From the NCBI RefSeq assembly GCF_030345075.1, contig NZ_CP128361.1, positions 868,001-932,000 of the forward strand: a stretch of 64,000 nucleotides of DNA, read 5' to 3'. Shown in pieces: positions 24,450 to 37,049 of this stretch. The stretch's first letter is position 1; every line of letters starts with the position of its first letter. Source of the stretch: Solwaraspora sp. WMMA2065 (lineage in GTDB: Bacteria > Actinomycetota > Actinomycetes > Mycobacteriales > Micromonosporaceae). The position numbers were made by a program, and so were the translations under genes. The notes beneath the pieces are model-generated. The model was not told the origin of the DNA, did not search any database, and saw nothing but the letters and a program-made list of their open reading frames with translations.

Positions 24450-24505
24450 GGCGTACGCCGCCAGCGGCCCTTGGTCACCCGGCCAGGCCGCTGGCGGCGT
24501 ACGCC
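24450..24505. terminator. 20-bp perfect stem: bidirectional terminator
   Basis: Exact arms at 24450-24469 and 24486-24505 (core GGCGTACGCCGCCAGCGGCC) with a 16-base loop. It lies between two convergent genes, and its right arm codes for the last residues of the SGNH hydrolase. It probably ends both transcripts. Confidence 0.8.
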
Positions 24506-25332
24506 ACTTCGGCCAGCAGGTTCTGTCCGTCGGTGTCGGGGTGGAAGTAGTCCAGCCGGTTCAGCTGGTCCACGGTGAACCGGGTGTCGTGCACCGCTCC
24601 GTCGTCGAACCGGCACCGGTCGCCGTACGCCCGGCAGACCCCGGCCAGCTCCCGGTTGTACGCCGCGACCCGGTCGCGTACCGCCGCCCGGCGCTGTGTC
24701 GCGGCCTCGTCAGTCGCTGTCGCGTTGGCCAGCAGCGACGGACATACGCCACGGTCCCAGGCCCGCACCACCCGCTCCTCCCCGTGCCCGATCTCCCACA
24801 GCCGGTACAGGTCGGGGATGCTCAACAACAGGACCTCCGCCTGCGGCACACCATCGCCCAGCACCCGCAGGGCCCGGTCGACGTCGTCACGGAACGCCGC
24901 GACCGGGGTCATGTCCTGCGGCGTCGCCCGGCAGGCGTCGTTCGCGCCGATCAGCACCGTCACGTACTGGGCCGAGACGTCCACCGCCGACGCGGCCTGG
25001 TCGGCCAGTGCCGCGGCCCGCGCCCCTGGCACCGAGAAATCGTGCTCCTGCCCGTTCATCGCTGGATTGACCTCGGCGATCCGCTGGTAGAGACTCTCCA
25101 CCCGAAAACCGTCGCCAGTGGACCACGAATTGCGCCGGCAACTGGTCAGCACGACGCAGGAGCCGTACCCGGCGGTGATCGAGTCGCCGAGCGCCGCCAT
25201 CGACGACGGTAGGTCGGTGCCCGGCGGTGGCGGCGATGTCGGGTCCGGCCCGCCGCCGTCCTCGCCGGCTTCGCAGGCCAGCGCCACGAGGGCGCAGACG
25301 GCGGCGGCGCCGGCCACCCAACGTCGGTGCAT
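24475..25332 (-). CDS. Secreted SGNH/GDSL hydrolase, possible lipoprotein
   Basis: A 285-residue exported esterase-type protein. The signal peptide ends in ALVALACEAG, whose Cys could be lipidated although the lipobox is imperfect. The catalytic Ser lies in GDSITAG, the oxyanion residues are a Gly in the ARAAAL region and the Asn in IGANDAC, and Asp/His are in DYFHPD near the C-terminus. The family includes lipases and carbohydrate esterases. ATG 25332 has GGAGG seven bases upstream. It follows the OleD-like gene by 68 bases on the same strand and could be the last gene of that operon. Confidence 0.9.
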   Translation of the reverse strand: MHRRWVAGAAAVCALVALACEAGEDGGGPDPTSPPPPGTDLPSSMAALGDSITAGYGSCVVLTSCRRNSWSTGDGFRVESLYQRIAEVNPAMNGQEHDFSVPGARAAALADQAASAVDVSAQYVTVLIGANDACRATPQDMTPVAAFRDDVDRALRVLGDGVPQAEVLLLSIPDLYRLWEIGHGEERVVRAWDRGVCPSLLANATATDEAATQRRAAVRDRVAAYNRELAGVCRAYGDRCRFDDGAVHDTRFTVDQLNRLDYFHPDTDGQNLLAEVAYAASGLAG

Positions 25333-25400
25333 CCGGACCTCCAACGAGACGGAAAGCGACGGAAGGATAACTATATGCGTCGGCGTGGATCTGGCGATAC

Positions 25401-26339
25401 CTACCGGGCCGGGCCGGTCGACAGCTCCGCCAGGAAACCGGGCAGGGCCCGCCGGGGCACCCACCCCTGGGCGTACGCCCGATCCAGATCCAGCACCGTG
25501 CCGTACGCCAACTGCTCCACCGCGTACCGGGAGATCCGGCCGGTGCCCGGCAACCCCAGCCGGGCCGCACCATCGACCAGCACCGCCGCGCCCAGCGCCA
25601 CCGGCACCGGCACCCGCAGCGGCCGCGCCGGCCGGCCGGCCGCCGCAAGCACCCCGGCGACCACGGCGTCGCGTGCGTACGGCGTCGCGTCGGCCACGTT
25701 GAACGGACCCGGCGGCCAGCTCAGCGCCGCCAGGCACGCGTCCGCCAGGTTCTCCACCGCCGTCAGGCTCATCGCAACGTCCGGACCGGGCACCGGCACC
25801 CGACCCCGCCGGACCGCAGCCAGCAGCCGGGGCAGCAGATGCGGGTCACCGGCCCCGTAGACCGCCCTGGGCCGCAGCACCACCGCACCGGCCGCCAACG
25901 CCAGCCGCTCCCCGGCGGCCTTGGTCCGCCCGTACCCGGTGCGCTGGCCGTCCGTCGGGTGATCCTCGCGGATCACGGTGCCGTGTCCACCCGGCCGGTA
26001 GACGCTGGCGCTGCTCACCCAGACCACCGGCCGGTCGGCCGCTGCCCGCAGCAGCCGGGCCGTGCCCGCCACGTTCACCGCGTGGTACGCGGCCTCCGCC
26101 GCCGCGCCCGGCGGCGGATCCCCGACCGCCGCCGCCAGATGCACCACGACGTCGACGCCCCGCAGGTCTGGAACCTCCCGGGCGGCGTCCCACGGCACGT
26201 GCCGACCCACCGGGCCGGGTCGACGGCCCACCGCCACCACCTCGGCACCGGCCGCTGCGGCGGCCCGTGCCACCGCCGATCCGCAGAAGCCACTGGCACC
26301 GGTCACCGCGACCCGCAGCCCGGCCAGCCGGATGCTCAC
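25401..26339 (-). CDS. NAD-dependent epimerase/dehydratase, OleD-like
   Basis: A 312-residue extended SDR. It has the cofactor motif TGASGFCGSAV near residues 14-24, HLAAAVGDP, the catalytic SSASVY region, and Tyr and Lys in YGRTK, then RPRAVYGAGD and NVADATPY. Proteins of this group include OleD, which reduces a 2-alkyl-3-ketoacid to the 3-hydroxyacid in long-chain olefin and beta-lactone pathways; the link rests mainly on the OleA-like and OleC-like genes upstream. The GTG start at 26339 overlaps the stop of the P450 gene (GTGA). Confidence 0.85.
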   Translation of the reverse strand: MSIRLAGLRVAVTGASGFCGSAVARAAAAAGAEVVAVGRRPGPVGRHVPWDAAREVPDLRGVDVVVHLAAAVGDPPPGAAAEAAYHAVNVAGTARLLRAAADRPVVWVSSASVYRPGGHGTVIREDHPTDGQRTGYGRTKAAGERLALAAGAVVLRPRAVYGAGDPHLLPRLLAAVRRGRVPVPGPDVAMSLTAVENLADACLAALSWPPGPFNVADATPYARDAVVAGVLAAAGRPARPLRVPVPVALGAAVLVDGAARLGLPGTGRISRYAVEQLAYGTVLDLDRAYAQGWVPRRALPGFLAELSTGPAR

Positions 26340-27487
26340 CACCGGGTCGCCCGGACCGTCAGCCGGGCCCAGCCCGGCAGCGCCGAACGCCGGTCCACCC
26401 GCGCCCCCGTCACCACCGGCCGGTACGGGGCCAGCGCGGCGAGCACATCGTCGAGCTGGGCGTGGGCCAGCCGGGCACCGGGGCAGTGGTGCGCCCCGGT
26501 GCCGAACACCAGATGCCCGACCGCCACCGGCACCGGCACATCCGGATTCGGGTGCGGCGCATCGGCGCGGGCCGCGTGCCGGGCGACCAGCAACAGCCGG
26601 TCGCCGGCCCGCAGCCGGGTACCCGAGCGCAACCGGCTGCCGGCCCGTCCGGCGGTGCCGGCCAGCTCGGCGGCACCCGCCACCACCCGGGGCAGCACCG
26701 GGCTCGGCGCGGTCACCCGCAGCAGCTCCGACACCAGCACGGCCCGCGAGTCGGCGCGGTCCGCCGCCGGCCACAGCCGGTCGTCGGCACACCAGGCGAC
26801 GGCCCGGGGGATCGCCGCCACCGTGGTGTTGACCGAGGCGACGGCCAACATGCCGGCCCGGGCCGCCTCGTCCGCCGGACCGCCGAGCAGCCGGGCCAGC
26901 TCGGCGGCGGCCGACGCCGTGGCGGCGCGGTCCCGGGCGGCCCGGCCCGGCCAGCGCAGCCCGGGCAGATGCTCTCGGGCTGCGTGCGCCGCAGCGGACC
27001 TGGCCGCGGCGGTCAACGCGTGCGCCGACACCGACACGTCCAGCATCGCGGCGGTACTCGCCCCGGCCAGCTCGGCCACCAGATCGACGACATCCACCTC
27101 GGCCCCGTCGCCCAGTGGTACCAGCCGCCGCCGCAGCACGTCCAGCCAGACCGGGCGTAGCCGGACGACCCCGTCGGCGCCGTACACCGACGCGGCGGCC
27201 CGGCGGGTCCGCCGGTGCCCGGCGCCGTCCTGGTCGAACAGGAACCCATCGCCGCCGGTGGCCCGGCGTGCCGTCCCGGCGGTGGTCCGCTCGGCCGAGC
27301 GGTCCAACGGGACCCGACGCAGCGCTTGGGCGAACGGCGCGGCGTCGTGCACCAGAACGGTCCGGCCGATCCGGCGCACCGGCGCGCGTCGGGTCGCCGC
27401 CAACAGGGCGAACAGCACCGGATGGCTACCCAGGTAGACCAGCCGGTCCCGGCGGCGGCCCCGCCGGGTCGGTCGCTGTTCATCCAT
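26336..27487 (-). CDS. Cytochrome P450
   Basis: A 383-residue P450. The haem loop is FGTGAHHCPG with the ligand Cys at residue 335, and the K-helix ExxR is E254-LL-R257. The I-helix reads AVASVNTT around residues 215-222, where most bacterial P450s have AG(x)(D/E)TT, so the usual acidic residue is Asn220. This occurs in P450s with altered oxygen activation. Redox partners are not encoded nearby. The start overlaps the stop of the AMP ligase (ATGGATGA) and the stop overlaps the next gene, so it is firmly inside the operon and probably tailors its product. Confidence 0.92.
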   Translation of the reverse strand: MDEQRPTRRGRRRDRLVYLGSHPVLFALLAATRRAPVRRIGRTVLVHDAAPFAQALRRVPLDRSAERTTAGTARRATGGDGFLFDQDGAGHRRTRRAAASVYGADGVVRLRPVWLDVLRRRLVPLGDGAEVDVVDLVAELAGASTAAMLDVSVSAHALTAAARSAAAHAAREHLPGLRWPGRAARDRAATASAAAELARLLGGPADEAARAGMLAVASVNTTVAAIPRAVAWCADDRLWPAADRADSRAVLVSELLRVTAPSPVLPRVVAGAAELAGTAGRAGSRLRSGTRLRAGDRLLLVARHAARADAPHPNPDVPVPVAVGHLVFGTGAHHCPGARLAHAQLDDVLAALAPYRPVVTGARVDRRSALPGWARLTVRATRW

Positions 27488-28970
27488 CGCCGGCCACCCG
27501 CGCCGCAGCTCGCGCCGTTACCTGCGCCGCCACCTGAGCCGCCGCCTGCCGGTCCGGCTTGCGGGACCGCCCGGCCAGCGGAACCCGGGCGAACACCACC
27601 CGGTCCGGCCGGGCCGATCCCATCCGGTCCAGCACCGGCCGCAACGCGACCCGCAGCCGGGCCCGGTCGGCGCCCGGCTCCGGCTGCACCACGGCCACCA
27701 GCCGTTCGTCCCCGTCGTCGGCCGGCACGCCGACCAGCACCGCCAACGCCACCCCCGGCACGTGCAACGCCGGCTCGTACAGGCCCGGGTAGATGTTCTC
27801 CGCCGCCCGCAGCACCATGTCCTTGCACCGGCCGGCGAGCACCAGCCGGTCGCCGTCGAGCCGGCCGACGTCGCCGGTGGCCACCTCGGCCATCGGCGGT
27901 TCGCCGAGGTACCGGTCGGCCTGCCCCGGACCGGACAGTCGCACCTGCCCGGTGTCGTCGACCCGGGCGGTCACCCCCGCCAGCGGCCGGCCCACCAGGT
28001 CCCCGTCGGCGGCGTACCCGCGCTTGTCGGCCTCCTCAACGGCTGCGGCCGGGAACAGTTCGGTCAGCGCGTACACCCCGTACGCCCGGTCCGCGCCGGC
28101 CCGCTTGACCCGGCCCAGCAGGGCGGCGCTGACCGGGGCCGAGCCGCTGAACACCCGCCCGGTCAGTCGGGGCGAGTGCTCCAGCACCGCGCGCAGTTGC
28201 GGTGGTGTCAGGTACGTCGCCTGCGGCCGCAGCCGGATCAGCTGCCGGGCCAGCAGCGACGGCGACCGGGCCGGCAACGCCACCGGCGCGCCGGCCGCCA
28301 ACGCCGGCACCAGCACGAAGAACGTGCCGCCCAGCACCGGCACATCGGGCTGCGGGCCGACCAGCCCGGTCACCGCCCGCATCCCGGCGGACAACCCGGC
28401 CCGGGTGTGCACCACCGCCCGTGGCCGGCTGGTCGTCCCCGAGGTGAAGACGATCACCGCGTCACCGTCGCCGTCGAACGCCGCTGGTAGCGGGCCGGTG
28501 CCCGCCGGCAGCGCCGGCGCGCAGCCCGGCAACCGGCGCCCGACCGTACGGACCGGGGCGATCCGGGTCAGATCCGGCAGCGCCAGGTGCGCGCGGCGGG
28601 CCAGCGGACCGGCCCAGCCGGCCACCGCCTGCGCCACCGAGTCGGCCAGCACCAACGCTGGCTCGGCCACGGCGAGCCGGGCGGTCAGCACATCCGGACC
28701 GGCCGTCGGGTCCAGCACCGCCACCCGCACCCCCAGGTGGTACGCGGCCAGCAGTACCGCCAGCGAGCGGAGGCCCGGGCGTACCGCCAAGCCCAGGGTG
28801 TCCCCGGCGGCGAGCCCGTGCCGGGCCAGCGTGGCGGCGTACCGGTCGGTGAGACCGGTCAGGTCACCGGTGGTGGCCCGGACCCGGCAGCGGCCGGTCA
28901 GTGCCGTGGCGGTCAGCACCGCCGGCCGGTGCGGGTCGGCGCGCAACGTGGCCGCGAGTCGGTCCAGCAT
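27480..28970 (-). CDS. AMP-dependent ligase, OleC-like
   Basis: A 496-residue adenylate-forming enzyme. The phosphate loop reads VFTSGTTSRPRAV (residues 174-186), with Ser and Arg in place of the usual Gly and Lys. Later motifs are YALTE, TGDVGRLDGD and GRCKDMVLRAAENIYP. Such enzymes activate carboxylates; OleC members instead close 3-hydroxyacids to beta-lactones. No carrier-protein gene is adjacent. The start, ATG 28970, has GGAGG upstream. The nearby OleA-like and OleD-like genes support the OleC assignment, but a simple acyl-CoA ligase cannot be excluded. Confidence 0.85.
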   Translation of the reverse strand: MLDRLAATLRADPHRPAVLTATALTGRCRVRATTGDLTGLTDRYAATLARHGLAAGDTLGLAVRPGLRSLAVLLAAYHLGVRVAVLDPTAGPDVLTARLAVAEPALVLADSVAQAVAGWAGPLARRAHLALPDLTRIAPVRTVGRRLPGCAPALPAGTGPLPAAFDGDGDAVIVFTSGTTSRPRAVVHTRAGLSAGMRAVTGLVGPQPDVPVLGGTFFVLVPALAAGAPVALPARSPSLLARQLIRLRPQATYLTPPQLRAVLEHSPRLTGRVFSGSAPVSAALLGRVKRAGADRAYGVYALTELFPAAAVEEADKRGYAADGDLVGRPLAGVTARVDDTGQVRLSGPGQADRYLGEPPMAEVATGDVGRLDGDRLVLAGRCKDMVLRAAENIYPGLYEPALHVPGVALAVLVGVPADDGDERLVAVVQPEPGADRARLRVALRPVLDRMGSARPDRVVFARVPLAGRSRKPDRQAAAQVAAQVTARAAARVAGDG

Positions 28971-28995
28971 CAGCGGCCTCCGTCCCGGCGTGCGG

Positions 28996-29784
28996 TCACC
29001 GGGGATCCTCGGTCAACGGGCCGGCACCCCGGTCCAGGTACCAGGCGGCGGTGCGCCGCAGGCCGTACGCCCGCAGCCGCCGGGTCGAGTTCTCCACCAC
29101 CATGTCCCGGCGGTGGATGATCGCCGACGTGTTGCTGCGTACCCGGTTGAGGAAGGTCCGGTCGGTCGGTGACGGCCGGCGCGGCATGCCGCCGCACGCC
29201 TGGTACAGCTCGGTGGTGACCGCCATGTTGTTGCCGGCGTGCATCCGGTACGGCGCCAGGTAGCCGTCGCCGCGTCGGTGTGCCGGCCGCAGCCGACCGA
29301 ACGCCGCGGCGAGGAGCACCAGCAGCCGGAACCCGGCCCGACCCAGCGGGCCGTGCTCGTCGCGGCGGGCCCGGATCGCGCCGCAGACCAGCCCGGCACC
29401 GCCGGCCAGCCCGGCCCGGGCCGCCGCCACCCAACCGGGGTGCGGCAGACAGTCGGCGTCGGTGCGGGCCAGCCACCGGGCGCCGTGCGCGATGGCGTAC
29501 CGGAAACCGGTGTCGACCGCGGCGCCGACGCCCTTCTGCGGTTCCTGCAGCAGCCGGACTGGAAACGGCGCGGCCGCGGCGAACCGTTCGACCACGGCGG
29601 CGGTGCCGTCCGTGGAGCCGTTGTCGACCACGACCAGGGTGAAGTCCCGGTCGGTCTGGTCGGCTAGCGCGGCCAGCGTGGCACCGATCCGGGCCTGCTC
29701 CTGGTACGCCGGCACCACCACCCACAGCGGCCCCGCACCGGCCGCCGCCGGTGCGGCGGGTGGCTGCTCGACCGCCCGGGTCAC
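28996..29784 (-). CDS. Family 2 glycosyltransferase
   Basis: A 262-residue GT-A fold enzyme: VVVPAYQEQARIGATL, VVVDNGSTDGT, and the metal-binding RTDADCLPHPGW. There is no clear membrane segment. It overlaps the OleA-like gene by four bases (ATGA), so it belongs to the same operon and may add a sugar to the product, or act on a lipid carrier. Donor and acceptor are unknown. Confidence 0.9.
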   Translation of the reverse strand: MTRAVEQPPAAPAAAGAGPLWVVVPAYQEQARIGATLAALADQTDRDFTLVVVDNGSTDGTAAVVERFAAAAPFPVRLLQEPQKGVGAAVDTGFRYAIAHGARWLARTDADCLPHPGWVAAARAGLAGGAGLVCGAIRARRDEHGPLGRAGFRLLVLLAAAFGRLRPAHRRGDGYLAPYRMHAGNNMAVTTELYQACGGMPRRPSPTDRTFLNRVRSNTSAIIHRRDMVVENSTRRLRAYGLRRTAAWYLDRGAGPLTEDPR

Positions 29785-30809
29785 GGCTTCTCCCAGACCA
29801 TCGTCATCACACTGACCCCGCCACCGAGGCCGACCGCCAGCACCCGGTCGCCGCTGCGCAGTCCGGCGTCGATCCGGGCCAGCTGCACGCCGAGGGTGGC
29901 GCTGGCCAGGTTGCCGAACTCGGTGACCGTCACCTCCAGCTTCTCCTTCGGCACCCCGGTGACCTCGATGAAGCGTTCCAGGTACGGCACGCTGACCTGG
30001 TGCACCAGGACGCGTTCGTAGTCGACCCAGTCCCAGCCGGTGCGCCGCCGAACCCGGTCCAGGATGTCGGTGCCGATCCGCTCGAAGACCGACCGCAGGG
30101 CGTGCCCGTCGCCGTGGAAGTAGGTGTGCTCGTCACCGCGCGGATGCCGGGAGCCACCGCCGAAGATGCCACCGACCGCCCAGTGCCCGGACCGGGTCTC
30201 GGTGTCGACGTCGACGATCCCGCCGTTTGACACCGGCTCGACCAGCACCGCCGCCCCGCCGTCGCCGAACGTGTAGCCGGCGAACGACGACCGGGCCTGC
30301 GCCATGCTGTCCAGCCGGGGACGCATGACCCGGGTCGGGGTCTCACCGGTGACGACCAGCGCCCGCCGCGCCCGTCCGGCCACGATCATCGACCGGGCCA
30401 GGTCGATGCCGTTGATGAAGCTGTTGCAGGCGTTGCTGACGTCGACCGCGTGCGCCGATCCACCCAGCTCGGCCTGGACGATGTGCGCGGTCGCCGGCTC
30501 GACCATGTCCCGGCTGGCCGAGGCGAACAGCAGCAGGTCGACGTCGTCGGCGGTGCGTCCGGCGGTGTCGAGCGCCCGCCGGGCGGCCCGCACCGCGAAC
30601 GTCGAGGCGTACTCGTCGTCGGCGGCGACCCGGCGCTGTCCGATGCCGGTCATCGTGGCGAACAGGCCGGGTGGCAGTGCGACGTCACTGGCGGCGGTGA
30701 TCCGGTCCTGCAGGTCGGCGGTGGTGAGGGTACGGTCGGGGAGGCTGACGCCGACCCCGGTGATGCCGACCCGGGGGACGGGCCACTCCGGTCGCGACGA
30801 AACGTTCAT
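29781..30809 (-). CDS. Thiolase-fold condensing enzyme, OleA-like (KAS III family)
   Basis: A 342-residue KAS III-type enzyme. The catalytic triad is visible as Cys128 (SNACNSFING), His270 (LVHQVSVPYL) and Asn300 (EFGNLASATLG). The spacings Cys-His 142 and Cys-Asn 172 equal those of Xanthomonas OleA (C143, H285, N315) rather than FabH. Glu104 in DMVEPATAH sits near the place of OleA Glu117. OleA joins two acyl-CoA chains head to head to a beta-keto acid. This is the first gene of the leftward operon. Confidence 0.88.
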   Translation of the reverse strand: MNVSSRPEWPVPRVGITGVGVSLPDRTLTTADLQDRITAASDVALPPGLFATMTGIGQRRVAADDEYASTFAVRAARRALDTAGRTADDVDLLLFASASRDMVEPATAHIVQAELGGSAHAVDVSNACNSFINGIDLARSMIVAGRARRALVVTGETPTRVMRPRLDSMAQARSSFAGYTFGDGGAAVLVEPVSNGGIVDVDTETRSGHWAVGGIFGGGSRHPRGDEHTYFHGDGHALRSVFERIGTDILDRVRRRTGWDWVDYERVLVHQVSVPYLERFIEVTGVPKEKLEVTVTEFGNLASATLGVQLARIDAGLRSGDRVLAVGLGGGVSVMTMVWEKP

Positions 30810-30961
30810 CGGCTCAGCTTCCTGCCGGACCGGCCGGTCCGGATGAGTAGGGGTGCTCAGCCCGACCTGGTGGTGCGGGCCGACGTCGGTAGCTCGTCGT
30901 CGAGCCTCAACGGGCGCGTTCGCGAGGTTACGGCCCGGTGTCTGCCGGGTACAGCCCGGGG

Positions 30962-31228
30962 ATGGCCACGAAGTCGCAGCCCAACAGGGCCCGGGGTACC
31001 GTCGGTCACGCCTACAGCGCGTTGAATCTGCGGCTGGCGATGGCCGGTTTCGGGCTGGTCTTCTGCACCGTGCTCGGGGCGCTCGCCTGGCGGGCCGACC
31101 TCACCGCCGGCGCGGTCGTGCTGTGGGTGTTGGCCGTGATCGCCGTGGTCGACCTGGTCGTCGTCCAGCGTCGTCGCCGGGCCCGCCGGCGGGAGCAACC
31201 GGGCGTACGGCATTCACTGTTCGAGTGA
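30962..31228 (+). CDS. Small membrane protein, DUF6343-like
   Basis: An 88-residue protein with two membrane segments (about residues 22-40 and 47-65) and a basic tail RRRRARRRE. The pattern, with SALNLRLAMAGFGLV and VVDLVVVQRR, resembles the DUF6343 proteins of actinomycetes, of unknown function. It starts at ATG 30962. A weak SigB-like pattern (GGTT-N17-GGGTAC, 30926-30952) lies directly upstream. It is divergent from the OleA-like operon. Confidence 0.75.
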   Translation: MATKSQPNRARGTVGHAYSALNLRLAMAGFGLVFCTVLGALAWRADLTAGAVVLWVLAVIAVVDLVVVQRRRRARRREQPGVRHSLFE

Positions 31229-31582: not shown

Positions 31583-32770
31583 ATGGCGAAGAGTCAGTTC
31601 GTGCGGGCGAAGCCGCACCTCAACATCGGCACCATGGGTCACGTCGACCACGGCAAGACCACCCTGACCGCCGCGATCACCAAGGTTCTCGCCGACCGGG
31701 ACCCGGCGGCCAACCGGTTCGTGTCCTTCGACGGCATCGACCGGGCGCCGGAGGAGGTCTCGCGGGGCATCACCATCAACATCTCGCACGTCGAGTACGA
31801 GACCGCGACCCGGCACTACGCCCACGTGGACATGCCGGGCCACGCCGACTTCGTCAAGAACATGATCACGGGGGCGGCGCAGGTGGACGGGGCGATCCTG
31901 GTCGTCTCCGCGCTCGACGGGGCGATGCCGCAGACCCGCGAGCACGTGCTGCTGGCCCGTCGGGTCGGGGTGCCGTACCTGGTGGTGGCGATGAACAAGG
32001 CCGACGCGGTCGACGACCCGGAACTGCTCGACCTGGTCGAGCTCGAGGTCCGCGACCTCGTCACCGAGTACGGGTTCCCCGGCGAGCAGGTGCCGGTGGT
32101 CCGGGTGTCGGCGCTGCGGGCGCTGGAGGGCGACCCGCGCTGGGTGGACTCCATCGTGGAGCTGCTCGACGCGGTCGACCGGTACGTCCCGGTGCCACCC
32201 CGCGAGCTGGGCGAGCCGTTCCTGATGCCGATCGAGAACGTGCTGACCATCTCCGGTCGGGGCACCGTGGTGACCGGCGCGGTCGAGCGGGGCACCCTGC
32301 GGCTCGGCGACCCGGTGGAGGTGGTCGGACTCGGTCCGACCCTGTCGACCGTGGCGACCGGGCTGGAGACGTTCGGCAAGTCGCTGGACACCGCCGAGGC
32401 CGGCGACAACGCCGCCGTACTGCTGCGCGGGGTCAAGCGGGACCAGGTGCAGCGGGGCCAGGTGGTGGCGGTGCCCGGCAGCGTCACGCCGCACCAGCGG
32501 TTCCGGGCCCGGTTGTACGTGCTGACCACCGCCGAGGGGGGCCGGCACACGCCGTTCTTCGCGAACTACCGGCCGCAGTTCTACTTCCGTACCACGGACG
32601 TGGTCGGGTCGGTGCGGCTCGCCGACGGCACGATGGCCATGCCGGGCGACACCGTCGAGGTGACGGTGGAGCTGGGCAGGCCGGTCGCGATGGACGTCGG
32701 GCTCGGCTTCGCGGTCCGTGAGGGCGGCCGTACGGTGGCCGCCGGCACGGTGGCCGAGCTGCTCGACTGA
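31583..32770 (+). CDS. tuf: Elongation factor Tu paralogue without cysteine
   Basis: A 395-residue EF-Tu with intact GTPase motifs: GHVDHGKTT (residues 19-27), DMPGH (83-87, keeping the catalytic His) and NKAD (138-141). Domains 2 and 3 are complete, including [19 protein letters not shown]. It delivers aminoacyl-tRNA to the ribosome. It is not next to fusA or ribosomal protein genes, so it is probably a second, divergent copy like tuf3 of some streptomycetes. The usual DCPGH Cys is Met84, and the whole protein has no Cys. The gene has a long structured leader and ends in a 22-bp hairpin. Specialised use under stress or elfamycin resistance are both possible. Confidence 0.93.
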
Positions 32771-32938: not shown

Positions 32939-33553
32939 ATGCGGCACACCAGTCCCGCGATGGCTGCGGACGGCGCGACCACCGGCTTCGGCGACCAGGT
33001 CTTCCAACAGCTGCTCAAGGAGCGGGTGATCTTTCTCGGCACCCAGGTCGACGACACCTCGGCCAACACGATCTGTGCGCAGATGTTGCTGCTGGCGGCC
33101 GAGGACAGCGAGCGCGACATCTTCCTCTACATCAATTCGCCGGGCGGCGTGATCAGTGCCGGCATGGCGGTCTACGACACGATGCACTACATAGGAAACG
33201 ACGTGGCGACCGTCGGCCTCGGTCTCGCCGGGTCGATGGGACAGTTCCTGCTCTGTGCCGGCGCGCCCGGCAAACGGTACGCCCTGCCGCACACCCGGAT
33301 CATGATGCACCAGTTGTCCGGCGGGATGGGCGGCAGCGCCGCCGACATCGCCATCCAGGCGGAGAACATGCTGCACATCAAGCGGACGACGATCGAGCGG
33401 ATCGCGTTCCACACCGGGCGCACCCGCGAGGAGATCGAGCAGGACTCCGACCGGGACCGGTGGTTCACCGCAGAGCAGGCCCGCGAGTACGGCATCATCG
33501 ACCAGGTGATCGCCACCACTGCGCAGCTGTCCGCCGGTGGCGTCTCCAGCTGA
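32939..33553 (+). CDS. clpP: ATP-dependent Clp protease proteolytic subunit
   Basis: A 204-residue ClpP. Catalytic residues are Ser99 (GLAGSMGQ), His124 (RIMMHQ) and Asp173 (DRDRWF). YINSPGGVISAGMAVYDTM and the handle helix are present. The usual AASM around the Ser reads AGSM. It works with a Clp ATPase in cytoplasmic proteolysis. It stands alone instead of as a clpP1P2 pair and is followed 27 bases later by an XRE regulator, which resembles the PopR-controlled clpP3/4 system. ATG 32939 has GAGAGGGG upstream. Confidence 0.94.
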   Translation: MRHTSPAMAADGATTGFGDQVFQQLLKERVIFLGTQVDDTSANTICAQMLLLAAEDSERDIFLYINSPGGVISAGMAVYDTMHYIGNDVATVGLGLAGSMGQFLLCAGAPGKRYALPHTRIMMHQLSGGMGGSAADIAIQAENMLHIKRTTIERIAFHTGRTREEIEQDSDRDRWFTAEQAREYGIIDQVIATTAQLSAGGVSS

Positions 33554-33580: not shown

Positions 33581-34015
33581 ATGCTGCTGCGACAGGTCAT
33601 CGGGCGGGTGCTGCGCCGGCTCCGGCAGGACCAGGGTCGCACCCTGCAGGACGTCGCCCGCGCCGCCGGCCTGTCCACGGCGTACCTGTCGGAGCTGGAG
33701 CGTGGACGCAAGGAACCGTCCTCGGAGATGTTGGCGTCGATCTGCCGGGCGCTCGGCGTCGCGCTGGAGGAGCTGTTGGCGCAGGCGATGCAGGAGCTGA
33801 CCCGCAGCCGTCCGATGGCCACCGTCCGCTGTCGACGATCTGTCCGGCCCTCGGGCGGGTCTCCGTCGGCCACCCGAGGGCGACGGGGACGGGTGGGTCC
33901 GTCCGCCGGTCGGCCGGGCGAGCGGTGGGCCGGCCGGCTGGTGGCCGACCCGCCGCTCGCGGCGCAGCGGCGGGTCGGCCAACAGCACAGGTTCAGGAGC
34001 AGGCCACCCCGTTGA
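33581..34015 (+). CDS. XRE regulator, PopR/ClgR-like, with doubtful C-terminal tail
   Basis: The first 80 residues are a clear ClgR/PopR-type XRE protein: [40 protein letters not shown] and [16 protein letters not shown]. These regulators activate clp genes and are themselves Clp substrates. The remaining 65 residues are Arg/Gly/Pro-rich and cross two long inverted repeats (33847-33881 and 33943-33980), and the frame overlaps the GH9 gene by 23 bases. The true end is therefore doubtful: a frameshift after about residue 80 would restore a short family-sized protein (a TGA in another frame lies near 33799). Confidence 0.8.
33943..33980. terminator. 15-bp perfect stem between convergent genes
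   Basis: Arms at 33943-33957 and 33966-33980 (core GGCCGACCCGCCGCT) with an 8-base loop lie just beyond the GH9 stop (33993) and inside the doubtful tail of the regulator. It is a likely bidirectional terminator, which argues that the regulator tail is not coding. Confidence 0.7.
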
Positions 34016-37000
34016 CGGTGATCAGCTCCGGTGCCGGGTTGGCTCCGCCGGCGGTGGTGGCGTTCAGCCCGAACATTGCCGTCTCGCCGGGCTCCAGCCG
34101 GCCGTTGTAGGTCTCGCTGCGGGCCGTCACCGTCGCCCCGCTCTGGCTGACCTTGGCCATCCACGCCTCCCGGAGCCGCTGGTCACCGGTGAACGCGAAG
34201 CGGACCGTCCAGCCGTCGACTGTGGCGTCCCCGGTGTTGGTGATGTCGACCTGGGCGGTGAAGCCTCCGCCGCCGGCCCATTTGCCGTAGTTGATGTACT
34301 CGGCCCGGCAGCTCAACGGCGCCGGTGCCGGCACCGCGTCGCCCTGGTCGGCCAGGAAGGAGGCGATCCAGCTCAACGCCGAGTTCCAGTTGATCGCCAC
34401 TTCGTTCGTCGCGTACGACTCGATGTCGTCGACGTAGCAGAACATCGGCGCGCAGCCTTCCAGCAGGTCCCGGGCGAACGGGTCGTCCAGGCCGGCGTTG
34501 GCACCGCCGGCGATCGACCCGGCCGGCGGGATCGGCAGGTCCGGGTCGAGCTGGTTGCCGAAGATTCGGCTGTGCTGGTTGCGCGGGTACACCGAGCCCC
34601 AGCCGGTGACGTACGAGTGGTTCAGCGCGTTGCGACCGAAGATGTAGTCCATCGCCTGCACGGCACCGTCGCGGTACCCGGTGTCCCCGGTCATGTCGTA
34701 CGCCGTGGCGAGCACCACCGCATTGTTGATGATGTTGCTGTTGGCACCCCAGAAGTAGGCACCCCGGTTGCCTGGCATCGGCAACCCGTACGCCTGACCG
34801 TCCCCGGTATCGAGGTAGGAGTCGGCGGCGGCCACCACCGAGGCACGGATCCGGTCCCGCTCCTGCGGGGCGAGCCCGTTCGGCACGGTGGCCAGGTCGA
34901 GCCGGCCGAGCGCGGCGGTGGAGCCCCAGCCAAAGCCGGTCGCGTCGAAGACGTCCCGGGTGTGGTGCGGCGAGGCGGTGACGTCGTCGAGGTAGCTCTG
35001 CTCGCCGGTGGTCAGGTACATCTCGGCCGCCGCCCAGTAGAACTCGTCGCTGACGTCACCGTCGCTGTAGGCGCCGCCACCGTTGCCGTCGGCCGGGTCG
35101 GCGAGCCGGGCCGGGTTGGCCTTGGCAGCCGCGTAGGCCGTCGTCGCCGCAGTCCGGCACTGGTCGGCGAACGCGGTGTCGTACGGGGCGTACAGCCGGG
35201 CGCACTGGGCGGTGACGGCCGCCAGGTTCAGCGTGGCTGCGGTCGACGGCGGGTGCAGCTCCCGCAGCTCCGGGTCGTCCTCCGGCTGCAGCGGCAGGCC
35301 GGTCCAGTTCCGGTCGTGGATCTTGTGGTGCGCCATCCCGGCGAGCGGTTCACCGGCCGGCACCTGCATCCGCATCAGGAACTCCAGCTCCCAGCGGGCC
35401 TCGTCGAGGATGTCCGGCACGCCGTTGTCCCGCTCGGGCACCCGCAAGGTGCCGTCGCCGAGCCCGGCCCCGCCGTCGGCGCTGGGCGCGGTCTTGGTCC
35501 GCTCGAACGCGCTGAGCAGCTGGTAGGTGGCGATGCCACCGTTGACCACGTACTTGCCGTGGTCGCCGGCGTCGTACCAGCCGCCGCGTACGTCGAGTCG
35601 GTAGTCGCAGACGCCGGGCTGGCACGGCACGTCGATGTCGCCCTGGTTGGGCGCGACGCCGACATGGCCGGCGGGGCGGGCGTACTCCTCGCCGACCAGG
35701 TCTGCGTCGATGGCGATGCCGCTGCGCTGGATGTAGAAGAACTGCAGCGCGTCGGAGCGCAGCTGCTGGTAGATGTCGCCGGAGATGGCGAACGGGTAGC
35801 TGGTCTCGCCGTCGGTGACCAGGGTGAACCCGGTGCCGGTGCCCCGGTACGCGGAGAAGTCGATGCTGTGCGTCTGCTCGCCGGAGGCGCTGTCCAGCCC
35901 ACGTACGGTGCTGGTGCCGCTGGCCACGACCGTCCCGTCGGCGTCGTGCAGTTGCCAGTCGAGCGGCTCGGTGGCGTCGGTGACGACGGTGGCGTTCTTG
36001 GGTCCGCCGGGCAGGTAGCCGACCTGGTTCACCCGTACCCGTGGCCCGGTGTCCGGCATGTACGGCGGCTCCTCCTCGCCGCCGCGCAGCGAGACGTCGT
36101 CCAGGCAGAAGGTGTATTCGTCGGCGTTGCCGCCGACCTGGAAGGCGAGCTGGGCCCGTTCGGTGTCCTCGCTGGCGACGAAGGTCGCCTCGACCCGCGA
36201 GGGTTCGGCGGTCAACGCCAGGTCGCGGCCGAAGTAGCCGGTGTACGGGTCGGCACCGAGCTGGACCACCGCCCGTACGGCGGCGGCCGGTTCGGCGGAC
36301 GCCGTGAAGCCGATGGTGTACTCCTCGCCGGTGATCAGCGGCAGGCCCTCCTGCAGGATGCCGGCGTCCCACGGGTTGGCCAGCCCGGTCGGGACGGTGG
36401 CGCAGAGCCGTCCGTCGACCACCCGGGGGCTGGTGGTGCCGTAGCTGATCCAGCTGTCGGTGCCGTTGCTGAAGTCGCCGTTGGTGATCTGCTCCGGCCC
36501 GCCGGGTGGGGGACCGACAGTGTCGTCGCTGAGCAGCGAGACGTCGTCCAGGCAGAGGGTGTAGTCGGCGGCGCCGCCGCCGAGTTGGAAGGTGAGGGTG
36601 CCGTCGGGGGAGTCGAGGTTGGCGGTGAACTCGTAGGTGAACGTCTCGGCGTCTGGCACGAGGTCGAGCTCGCGGCTGAGCACGGTGGTGTAGGGCTCCG
36701 CGTTGAGCTGAACGTTTGCCCGTACGGACGCGGGAACGTCGCTGGCGGCCGTGAAGGCCAGTCGGTACGCGGCACCGTCGATGAGTTCGATGCCGTTGTG
36801 TCCGATGCTGGCGTCCCACGGGTTGGTGGTGCCGCCGGGCACGCTGGCGCACAGTTGGCCGTCGGTGGCGGCCAGGGTGACGTTCTCGGTGCCCCACCAG
36901 GGGGCTGTTCCGTCGTCGAAGGTGCCGTTGACGATATGTTCGCGTTCCTCGGCGTACGCCGTCGTCACGGTCAGGGTGGTCAACGCCAGGACGCTGGCAC

Positions 37001-37049
37001 TGGTGCCGGCGAGCAGCGCGACCGTCCGGCGTCGTCTGGATCGGGTCAC
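33993..37049 (-). CDS. Secreted multidomain cellulase, GH9 with CBM4-type and CBM2 domains
   Basis: A 1,018-residue secreted glycosidase. Order: signal peptide (to about residue 33, ends TTAYA); two similar CBM4/9-type modules (about 34-180 and 185-325, each with NPWDA and [10 protein letters not shown] or [10 protein letters not shown]); an Ig-like CelD-type domain (about 335-420, [17 protein letters not shown]); the GH9 catalytic domain with [13 protein letters not shown] (catalytic Asp), PRNQHSR (His) and [14 protein letters not shown] (acid Glu); then a C-terminal CBM2 (about 915-1018). It cuts cellulose beta-1,4 bonds. A CebR-type operator lies 24 bases upstream, as in the GH6 gene. Confidence 0.96.

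Follow-up and report, generated by a model that had tools for sequence, protein, structure and literature searches.

Which product is made by an operon that combines relatives of the bacterial Ole enzymes with a glycosyltransferase and a cytochrome P450 and that lacks oleB? This question is raised by a locus of Solwaraspora sp. WMMA2065, which was analysed within a stretch of 64,000 nucleotides (contig NZ_CP128361.1, positions 868,001 to 932,000; hereafter the window, to whose own numbering all coordinates refer). Five genes on its minus strand (25401-30809) encode a KAS III enzyme resembling the condensing enzyme OleA, a family 2 glycosyltransferase (GT2), an AMP-forming (ANL) ligase, a cytochrome P450 and an extended short-chain dehydrogenase/reductase (SDR), with intergenic gaps of -4, +25, -8 and -4 bases in KAS III to SDR order; KAS III, GT2, ligase and SDR are assigned by Pfam. 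The initial annotation had recognised these five co-directional genes and their kinds, but its span (24475-30809) has to be corrected to 25401-30809, as its first ~0.9 kb is a separate gene for a GDSL lipoprotein.

The cluster is a further member of a published, chemically uncharacterised kind. A cluster of the composition OleA-GT-OleC-P450-OleD without oleB was described in 2020 in Actinoplanes atraurantiacus, and a glycosylated beta-lactone was proposed for it (mBio; PMC7064751), which contradicts the earlier statement that no cluster with this gene set had been described. Locus L149 from Paractinoplanes atraurantiacus has the identical gene order, and its products are 69, 72, 67, 50 and 61% identical to the five proteins of the window; L149 is equated with the published cluster on the grounds of organism and gene order, not of accession numbers. 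Literature searches, which covered open-licence papers only, found nothing further on the product of this gene set, and Micromonospora is not mentioned in the accessible part of PMC7158056.

Distribution of the gene cluster

Two sets of loci were compared with the window. The named loci are the best 80 of at least 362 relatives, fetched from named genomes by similarity of the ligase alone, and the family loci are stretches of ~19 kb, fetched as genomic context for 40 of the 66 genomes of the window's family (Micromonosporaceae) that have a relative of the ligase. The sets share organisms (e.g. L049 and L183) and are thus not independent. The order KAS III, GT2, ligase, (second GT2), P450, SDR on one strand is kept in 77 of the 80 named loci, and the three others (L134, L135 and L141) run off contig ends, i.e. 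the order is conserved far beyond chance. Flanking genes were considered as part of the unit and rejected: even the most frequent group of called non-core genes occurs in no more than 22 of the 80 loci, gene calling being rough in this G+C-rich DNA, and the largest recurring non-core groups are antisense to core genes.

At E 1e-20 the ligase has relatives in 66 of the 200 family genomes, spread over 13 of 44 genera; at least one of the 66 lacks the cluster, as L080 contains a distant ligase only and not the rest. The ligase is present in all seven available genomes of the window's genus. Among 199 genomes from the genus to which G370 belongs (probably Streptomyces), 17 have a relative. With a KAS III profile (E 1e-60), two matching genomes are obtained from the 296 of the phylum, including the window's own. 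The named loci stem from Streptomyces, Kitasatospora, Actinacidiphila, Micromonospora, Actinoplanes and genera split from it, as well as from Planosporangium, Virgisporangium, Spirilliplanes, Actinospica, Modestobacter, Phycicoccus and a strain labelled Saccharothrix. Hence, one published predicted cluster becomes a family present in many actinomycetes, and its lipid can be searched for in easily grown strains, including Streptomyces.

Condensing enzyme

In the window's KAS III, Cys128, His270 and Asn300 are spaced by 142 and 172 residues. In the alignment with Xanthomonas OleA (chain 3row_A) they pair, as we read it, with residues 129, 271 and 301, i.e. the spacing is the same, just as the initial annotation had noticed. 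The triad was rejected as proof of an OleA, since all nine FabH-like sequences compared have it too, and a Glu-Pro pair was used instead. Glu117 is required by OleA (PMC7064751), and Glu104-Pro105 of the window's KAS III stands at the Glu117-Pro position. All five residues are kept in 40/40 alignment rows; in the 80 named loci Cys and His are found throughout, Asn in 79 (His in one) and Glu in 79 (unread in one).

In a tree of 44 rows, 21 sequences of the cluster (from 12 family loci, 8 named loci and the window), 12 OleAs and two further KAS III enzymes, one from L226 and one from L100 (loci compared with known systems below), are split from the nine FabH-like sequences with a value of 100 in the Shimodaira-Hasegawa-like approximate likelihood ratio test (SH-aLRT). 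Glu-Pro is present in 35/35 rows on the OleA side, and Glu in none of the nine FabH-like rows. A tree of 45 rows gives this split again (SH-aLRT 100). Both are unrooted quick trees of hand-chosen rows with long branches. The 44-row tree omits the second KAS III gene of either locus, L100 and L226, and includes neither PpyS nor CorB sequences. From residues and phylogeny, which place the condensing enzyme with the Ole and beta-lactone groups, we infer that it is of the OleA type, as had been proposed, and predict a head-to-head condensation. The A. atraurantiacus OleA, produced in E. coli, is active on p-nitrophenyl hexanoate, which it hydrolyses (PMC7064751).

A further KAS III that counts in favour of this assignment is encoded in Streptomyces filipinensis at locus L233 (6196-14924), which lies ~175 kb from the five-gene cluster of this strain on the same contig. 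It has the Glu-Pro pair, and in the tree its long branch falls on the cluster's side. L233 also contains genes for an OleB-like hydrolase (202 bits), an OleC-like ligase (383 bits) and an OleD-like SDR (42% to an OleD in tblastn), together with a fatty acyl-AMP ligase and a desaturase; the latter two hint at acyl carrier protein-bound acyl chains as possible substrates.

Ligase, reductase and absence of oleB

The ANL motif residues of the ligase are conserved, both in the alignment and in the 80 named loci, and adenylation is therefore likely. With the curated OleC model the ligase reaches 48.9 bits (cut-off 900), whereas menE (84 bits) and some FadD models score higher; actinobacterial OleCs, at 211-538 bits, are also below the OleC cut-off, which is exceeded in none of the 296 genomes. 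The structural model of the ligase has a predicted local distance difference test score (pLDDT) of 81.1 and is weak at residues 382-402.

For the SDR the best NCBIfam model is OleD (80 bits, cut-off 580), a model that also matches in 14/14 control genomes. With a profile of 15 SDRs of the cluster, 14 OleD references reach 130-178 bits, and seven other fetched SDR loci of the genome 42-130 bits. Tyr and Lys of the YxxxK motif are kept in all 75 readable sequences of the 80 named loci. The label OleD, under which the initial annotation placed this extended SDR, is plausible rather than certain, the likeness being weak.

An oleB gene was not found in the window's genome, where the best match to an OleB profile of 10 sequences is 69 bits; two oleB-positive genomes yield 483 and 347 bits, and unrelated hydrolases therein 111 and 122 bits. 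The best scores in G093 and in A. atraurantiacus are 62 and 61 bits, respectively. The missing OleB, claimed earlier for the operon, agrees with this negative result for the genome. The 202-bit match in S. filipinensis was considered as a missed oleB of the cluster and discarded, as it belongs to the other ole-type locus of that contig.

Glycosyltransferases and cytochrome P450

The DxD motif of the first glycosyltransferase (GT2a) is kept in 37/37 alignment rows (L082 was dropped because of a bad start) and in 80/80 named loci. At least 24 of the 80 named loci encode a second GT2, and a tree of these 24 copies and 15 subsampled first copies groups the two kinds apart (SH-aLRT 100). Two of the 40 family loci (L063 and L064) lack the first GT2 and contain the other four genes.

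The P450 of the window matches no Pfam model, whereas 25 of the 26 members of its alignment match PF00067. A profile of this alignment finds solved P450s at 3.6e-19, and the structural model (pLDDT 89.9) has P450s as its matches in the PDB, P450BioI being the first. The heme Cys and the Glu and Arg of the ExxR motif are kept in all 77 readable sequences of the 80 named loci. Judging from its modelled fold and heme residues, the protein qualifies as a cytochrome P450. The acid of the I-helix, however, is missing: in the named loci its position is occupied by Asn (67), Thr (8), Ser (2) or Ala (1), two being unread, and the Thr that follows is kept in 77 (Arg in one, two unread). Likewise, 29 rows of the main group have Asn (26), Thr (2) or Ser (1) at the acid position. 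According to the accessible part of PMC9366932, aromatase loses activity and fails to form Compound I once its Asp is mutated to Asn; peroxygenases, P450cin and P450eryF are named there as natural exceptions to the acid-alcohol pair. The P450 of the cluster may be a naturally occurring example of an enzyme that activates oxygen in the absence of this acid.

A second group of loci (L069-L079, 11 family loci) has another P450 gene between GT2 and ligase in 11/11 cases and a further one outside the operon in 10/11; for L069 both P450s are confirmed by Pfam. P450s of this group (the two of L069 and those of L076 and L079) have Glu-Thr at the pair. The rows of L070, L071, L073, L074, L075, L077 and L078 were dropped from the P450 alignment, as their best tblastn hit is a P450 outside the operon; for L069 and L072, the search with the window's P450 yielded no P450 hit.

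Proposed pathway and alternatives

Most likely, the product is a lipid that is oxidised as well as condensed, reduced and glycosylated. For the head-to-head condensed, reduced and glycosylated lipid as such we consider the balance to be slightly favourable; a beta-lactone as the end product we consider somewhat doubtful. In the pathway that we propose, the homodimeric KAS III would load one acyl chain onto Cys128 and join it head-to-head with a second acyl thioester, Glu104 serving as base, to give a 2-alkyl-3-keto acid, as its residues and its place in the tree suggest. The SDR, although only weakly OleD-like, would reduce this compound to the 2-alkyl-3-hydroxy acid. The ligase may then adenylate the carboxyl group, and a nucleophile, most simply the chain's own 3-hydroxyl, would take over the acyl-AMP, resulting in a beta-lactone; this is the weakest step. 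Subsequently, the P450 may oxidise one of the chains, perhaps by an altered oxygen activation that manages without the I-helix acid, and GT2a would attach a sugar. Without OleB the product would not be decarboxylated to an olefin.

Several observations weigh against this pathway. Purified OleA from A. atraurantiacus, of which little protein was available, reacted with none of the C8-C16 acyl-CoAs (PMC7064751). Another KAS III of this organism (L209), with Gln in place of Glu, scores 167.6 bits with the KAS III family profile versus at most 156.4 bits for canonical OleAs, although the trees place it, on a long branch, with the FabH side. Five other SDRs of the window's genome score 80.5-108.8 bits with the OleD model versus 77.9 bits for the SDR of the cluster, which lowers our confidence. 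The missing I-helix acid would weaken a plain hydroxylation by the P450. As to the ligase, 22 rows of the cluster (13 family loci, 8 named loci and the window) are apart (SH-aLRT 100) from 16 OleC rows (99), which include L226 and L100, in an unrooted tree of hand-chosen rows, nine other ANL enzymes, the only non-OleC enzymes chosen, forming a third group (99). A profile of the ligase does not separate OleCs (51-133 bits) from other ANL enzymes (22-115 bits), its single best score being that of the OleC of L100. Finally, the nearest solved structures are amide bond synthetases of the McbA type. McbA (6sq8, 6h1b) is the nearest by sequence, and McbA and an amide bond synthetase from Streptomyces hindustanus are among the nearest folds.

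The ligase forms a clade of its own outside OleC, i.e. its phylogeny, contrary to that of the condensing enzyme, departs from the expectation of the initial annotation. That the enzyme is an AMP ligase holds, but "OleC-like" was a loose description, and "OleC", judged by these comparisons, is a positional name; the ligase step should not be presumed to follow OleC chemistry. The doubt about the beta-lactone stems from the position of the ligase outside the OleC clade and from the purified orthologue, which did not condense any acyl-CoA offered to it. The earlier interpretation, with an oxidised and perhaps glycosylated beta-lactone or related lipid as the predicted product, is supported in part, namely as regards an OleA-type condensing enzyme and a genome in which no oleB was found.

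A mycolate-like glycolipid without a lactone we hold to be rather unlikely: KAS III and SDR would produce the 2-alkyl-3-hydroxy acid, the ligase would pass it as acyl-AMP to an external amine or alcohol, and GT2a would glycosylate the product. This agrees with a ligase outside the OleC clade, with McbA as its nearest solved relative both by sequence and by fold, with the high rank of the S. hindustanus enzyme and with the DxD motif of the GT2 in all 80 named loci. The likeness to McbA, however, amounts to ~25% identity and template modelling (TM) scores of 0.6-0.7, none of the PDB hits listed is named OleC, which makes a comparison with OleC impossible, and no core gene supplies an amine or another acceptor. 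It is improbable that KAS III joins other partners, e.g. a beta-ketoacyl and an acyl thioester in the manner of an alpha-pyrone synthase, a pyrone or ketone then being modified by the products of the other genes. PpyS-type alpha-pyrone synthases likewise employ Glu as base, KAS III has CorB (4yuc) among its weaker matches (81 bits), and the A. atraurantiacus orthologue did not show condensation of acyl-CoAs, but it is hard to see what a keto-acid reductase would do on a pyrone, and KAS III sides with OleA against FabH, in a tree without PpyS and CorB sequences. We consider it very improbable, in turn, that the operon has decayed or belongs to ordinary fatty-acid metabolism and yields no specialised product. 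The window's P450 does escape the Pfam model and has an altered acid position, yet catalytic residues of the other enzymes as well as the heme Cys and ExxR of the P450 are kept in nearly every readable locus, the ligase is present in all seven available genomes of the genus and the gene order is kept in 77 of 80 loci.

Neighbouring genes

The features in and around the cluster are listed in Table 1. The GDSL/SGNH hydrolase gene, which has its own start, was rejected as a member of the conserved unit, as it is seen in only eight of the 40 family stretches and in one of the 80 named loci; in family locus L050 it is ~3 kb from the SDR gene.

Table 1. Genes of the five-gene cluster and its surroundings in the window.
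Feature	Coordinates	Strand	Remarks
GDSL/SGNH hydrolase, predicted lipoprotein	24475..25332	-	PF13472; 68 bases downstream of the five genes
Extended SDR, weakly OleD-like, 312 aa, GTG start	25401..26339	-	PF01370 1.6e-28; 4-base overlap with P450 stop
Cytochrome P450, 383 aa	26336..27487	-	Heme Cys and ExxR kept; Asn220 at I-helix acid position
AMP-forming (ANL) ligase, 496 aa	27480..28970	-	PF00501 1.7e-31; "OleC" by position only
Glycosyltransferase family 2 (GT2a), 262 aa, GTG start	28996..29784	-	PF00535 1.4e-25; 4-base overlap with KAS III stop
OleA-like KAS III condensing enzyme, 342 aa	29781..30809	-	Cys128, His270, Asn300, Glu104-Pro105
Small DUF6343 protein	30938..31228	+	Between KAS III and EF-Tu genes
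Second EF-Tu	31583..32770	+	Transcribed away from the cluster
ClpP	32939..33553	+	2.1 kb from KAS III start
Helix-turn-helix regulator	33581..34015		Next to the ClpP gene
GH9 cellulase	33993..37049	-	Two CBM4/9 matches and CBM2

Upstream of the KAS III gene, the window encodes a second EF-Tu, which scores 621 bits versus 724 bits for the genome's other copy, and a ClpP. Both are found near the cluster in 6/6 other genomes of the genus. No ClpP gene was found in the available flanks (~4 kb upstream) of the 80 named loci. Some beta-lactones inhibit ClpP, as reported in the accessible part of PMC11408123, so it is conceivable that the neighbouring ClpP is a protected copy.

Comparison with known systems

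New in this analysis are the distribution of the cluster, the second GT2 and the P450 without the I-helix acid in all 78 readable loci. Beyond this, we speculate that the cluster may stand for a widespread class of actinomycete lipids, in which a non-OleC ligase would use a novel coupling reaction on a 2-alkyl-3-hydroxy (mycolate-like) acid and an unusual oxidation would be catalysed by a P450 devoid of the I-helix acid, resulting in glycosylated lipids not yet seen in Streptomyces or Micromonosporaceae; in the window's genus, the adjacent ClpP gene might even encode a beta-lactone target in protected form. Taken as a whole, this scenario is unlikely.

With the oleABCD olefin pathway of Xanthomonas and Micrococcus the operon shares a KAS III of the OleA type that has the Glu-Pro pair, an SDR of the extended type and an ANL ligase, whereas no OleB was found, the ligase is outside the OleC clade and GT2 and P450 are additional. 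The lipstatin cluster lst of Streptomyces toxytricini likewise combines KAS III, AMP ligase and SDR without oleB and yields a beta-lactone (PMC7064751), but its condensing enzyme is the heterodimer LstAB, according to the accessible part of PMC12141560. The OleC-bearing S. toxytricini locus L226 is taken to be lst, judged by organism and genes, and its ligase, unlike that of the window, is inside the OleC clade; S. toxytricini has both L226 and the five-gene cluster (L171). Similarly, the nocardiolactone-type cluster nlt of Nocardia contains OleA, OleC and OleD homologues without oleB, its product being a beta-lactone (PMC7064751). L100, taken to be a locus of this type, has a ligase inside the OleC clade and a KAS III that groups with that of L226. 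By comparison, the A. atraurantiacus cluster and that of the window are alike in their five genes, the gene order and the absence of oleB; the organism differs, and nothing was found that sets the two clusters apart in kind.

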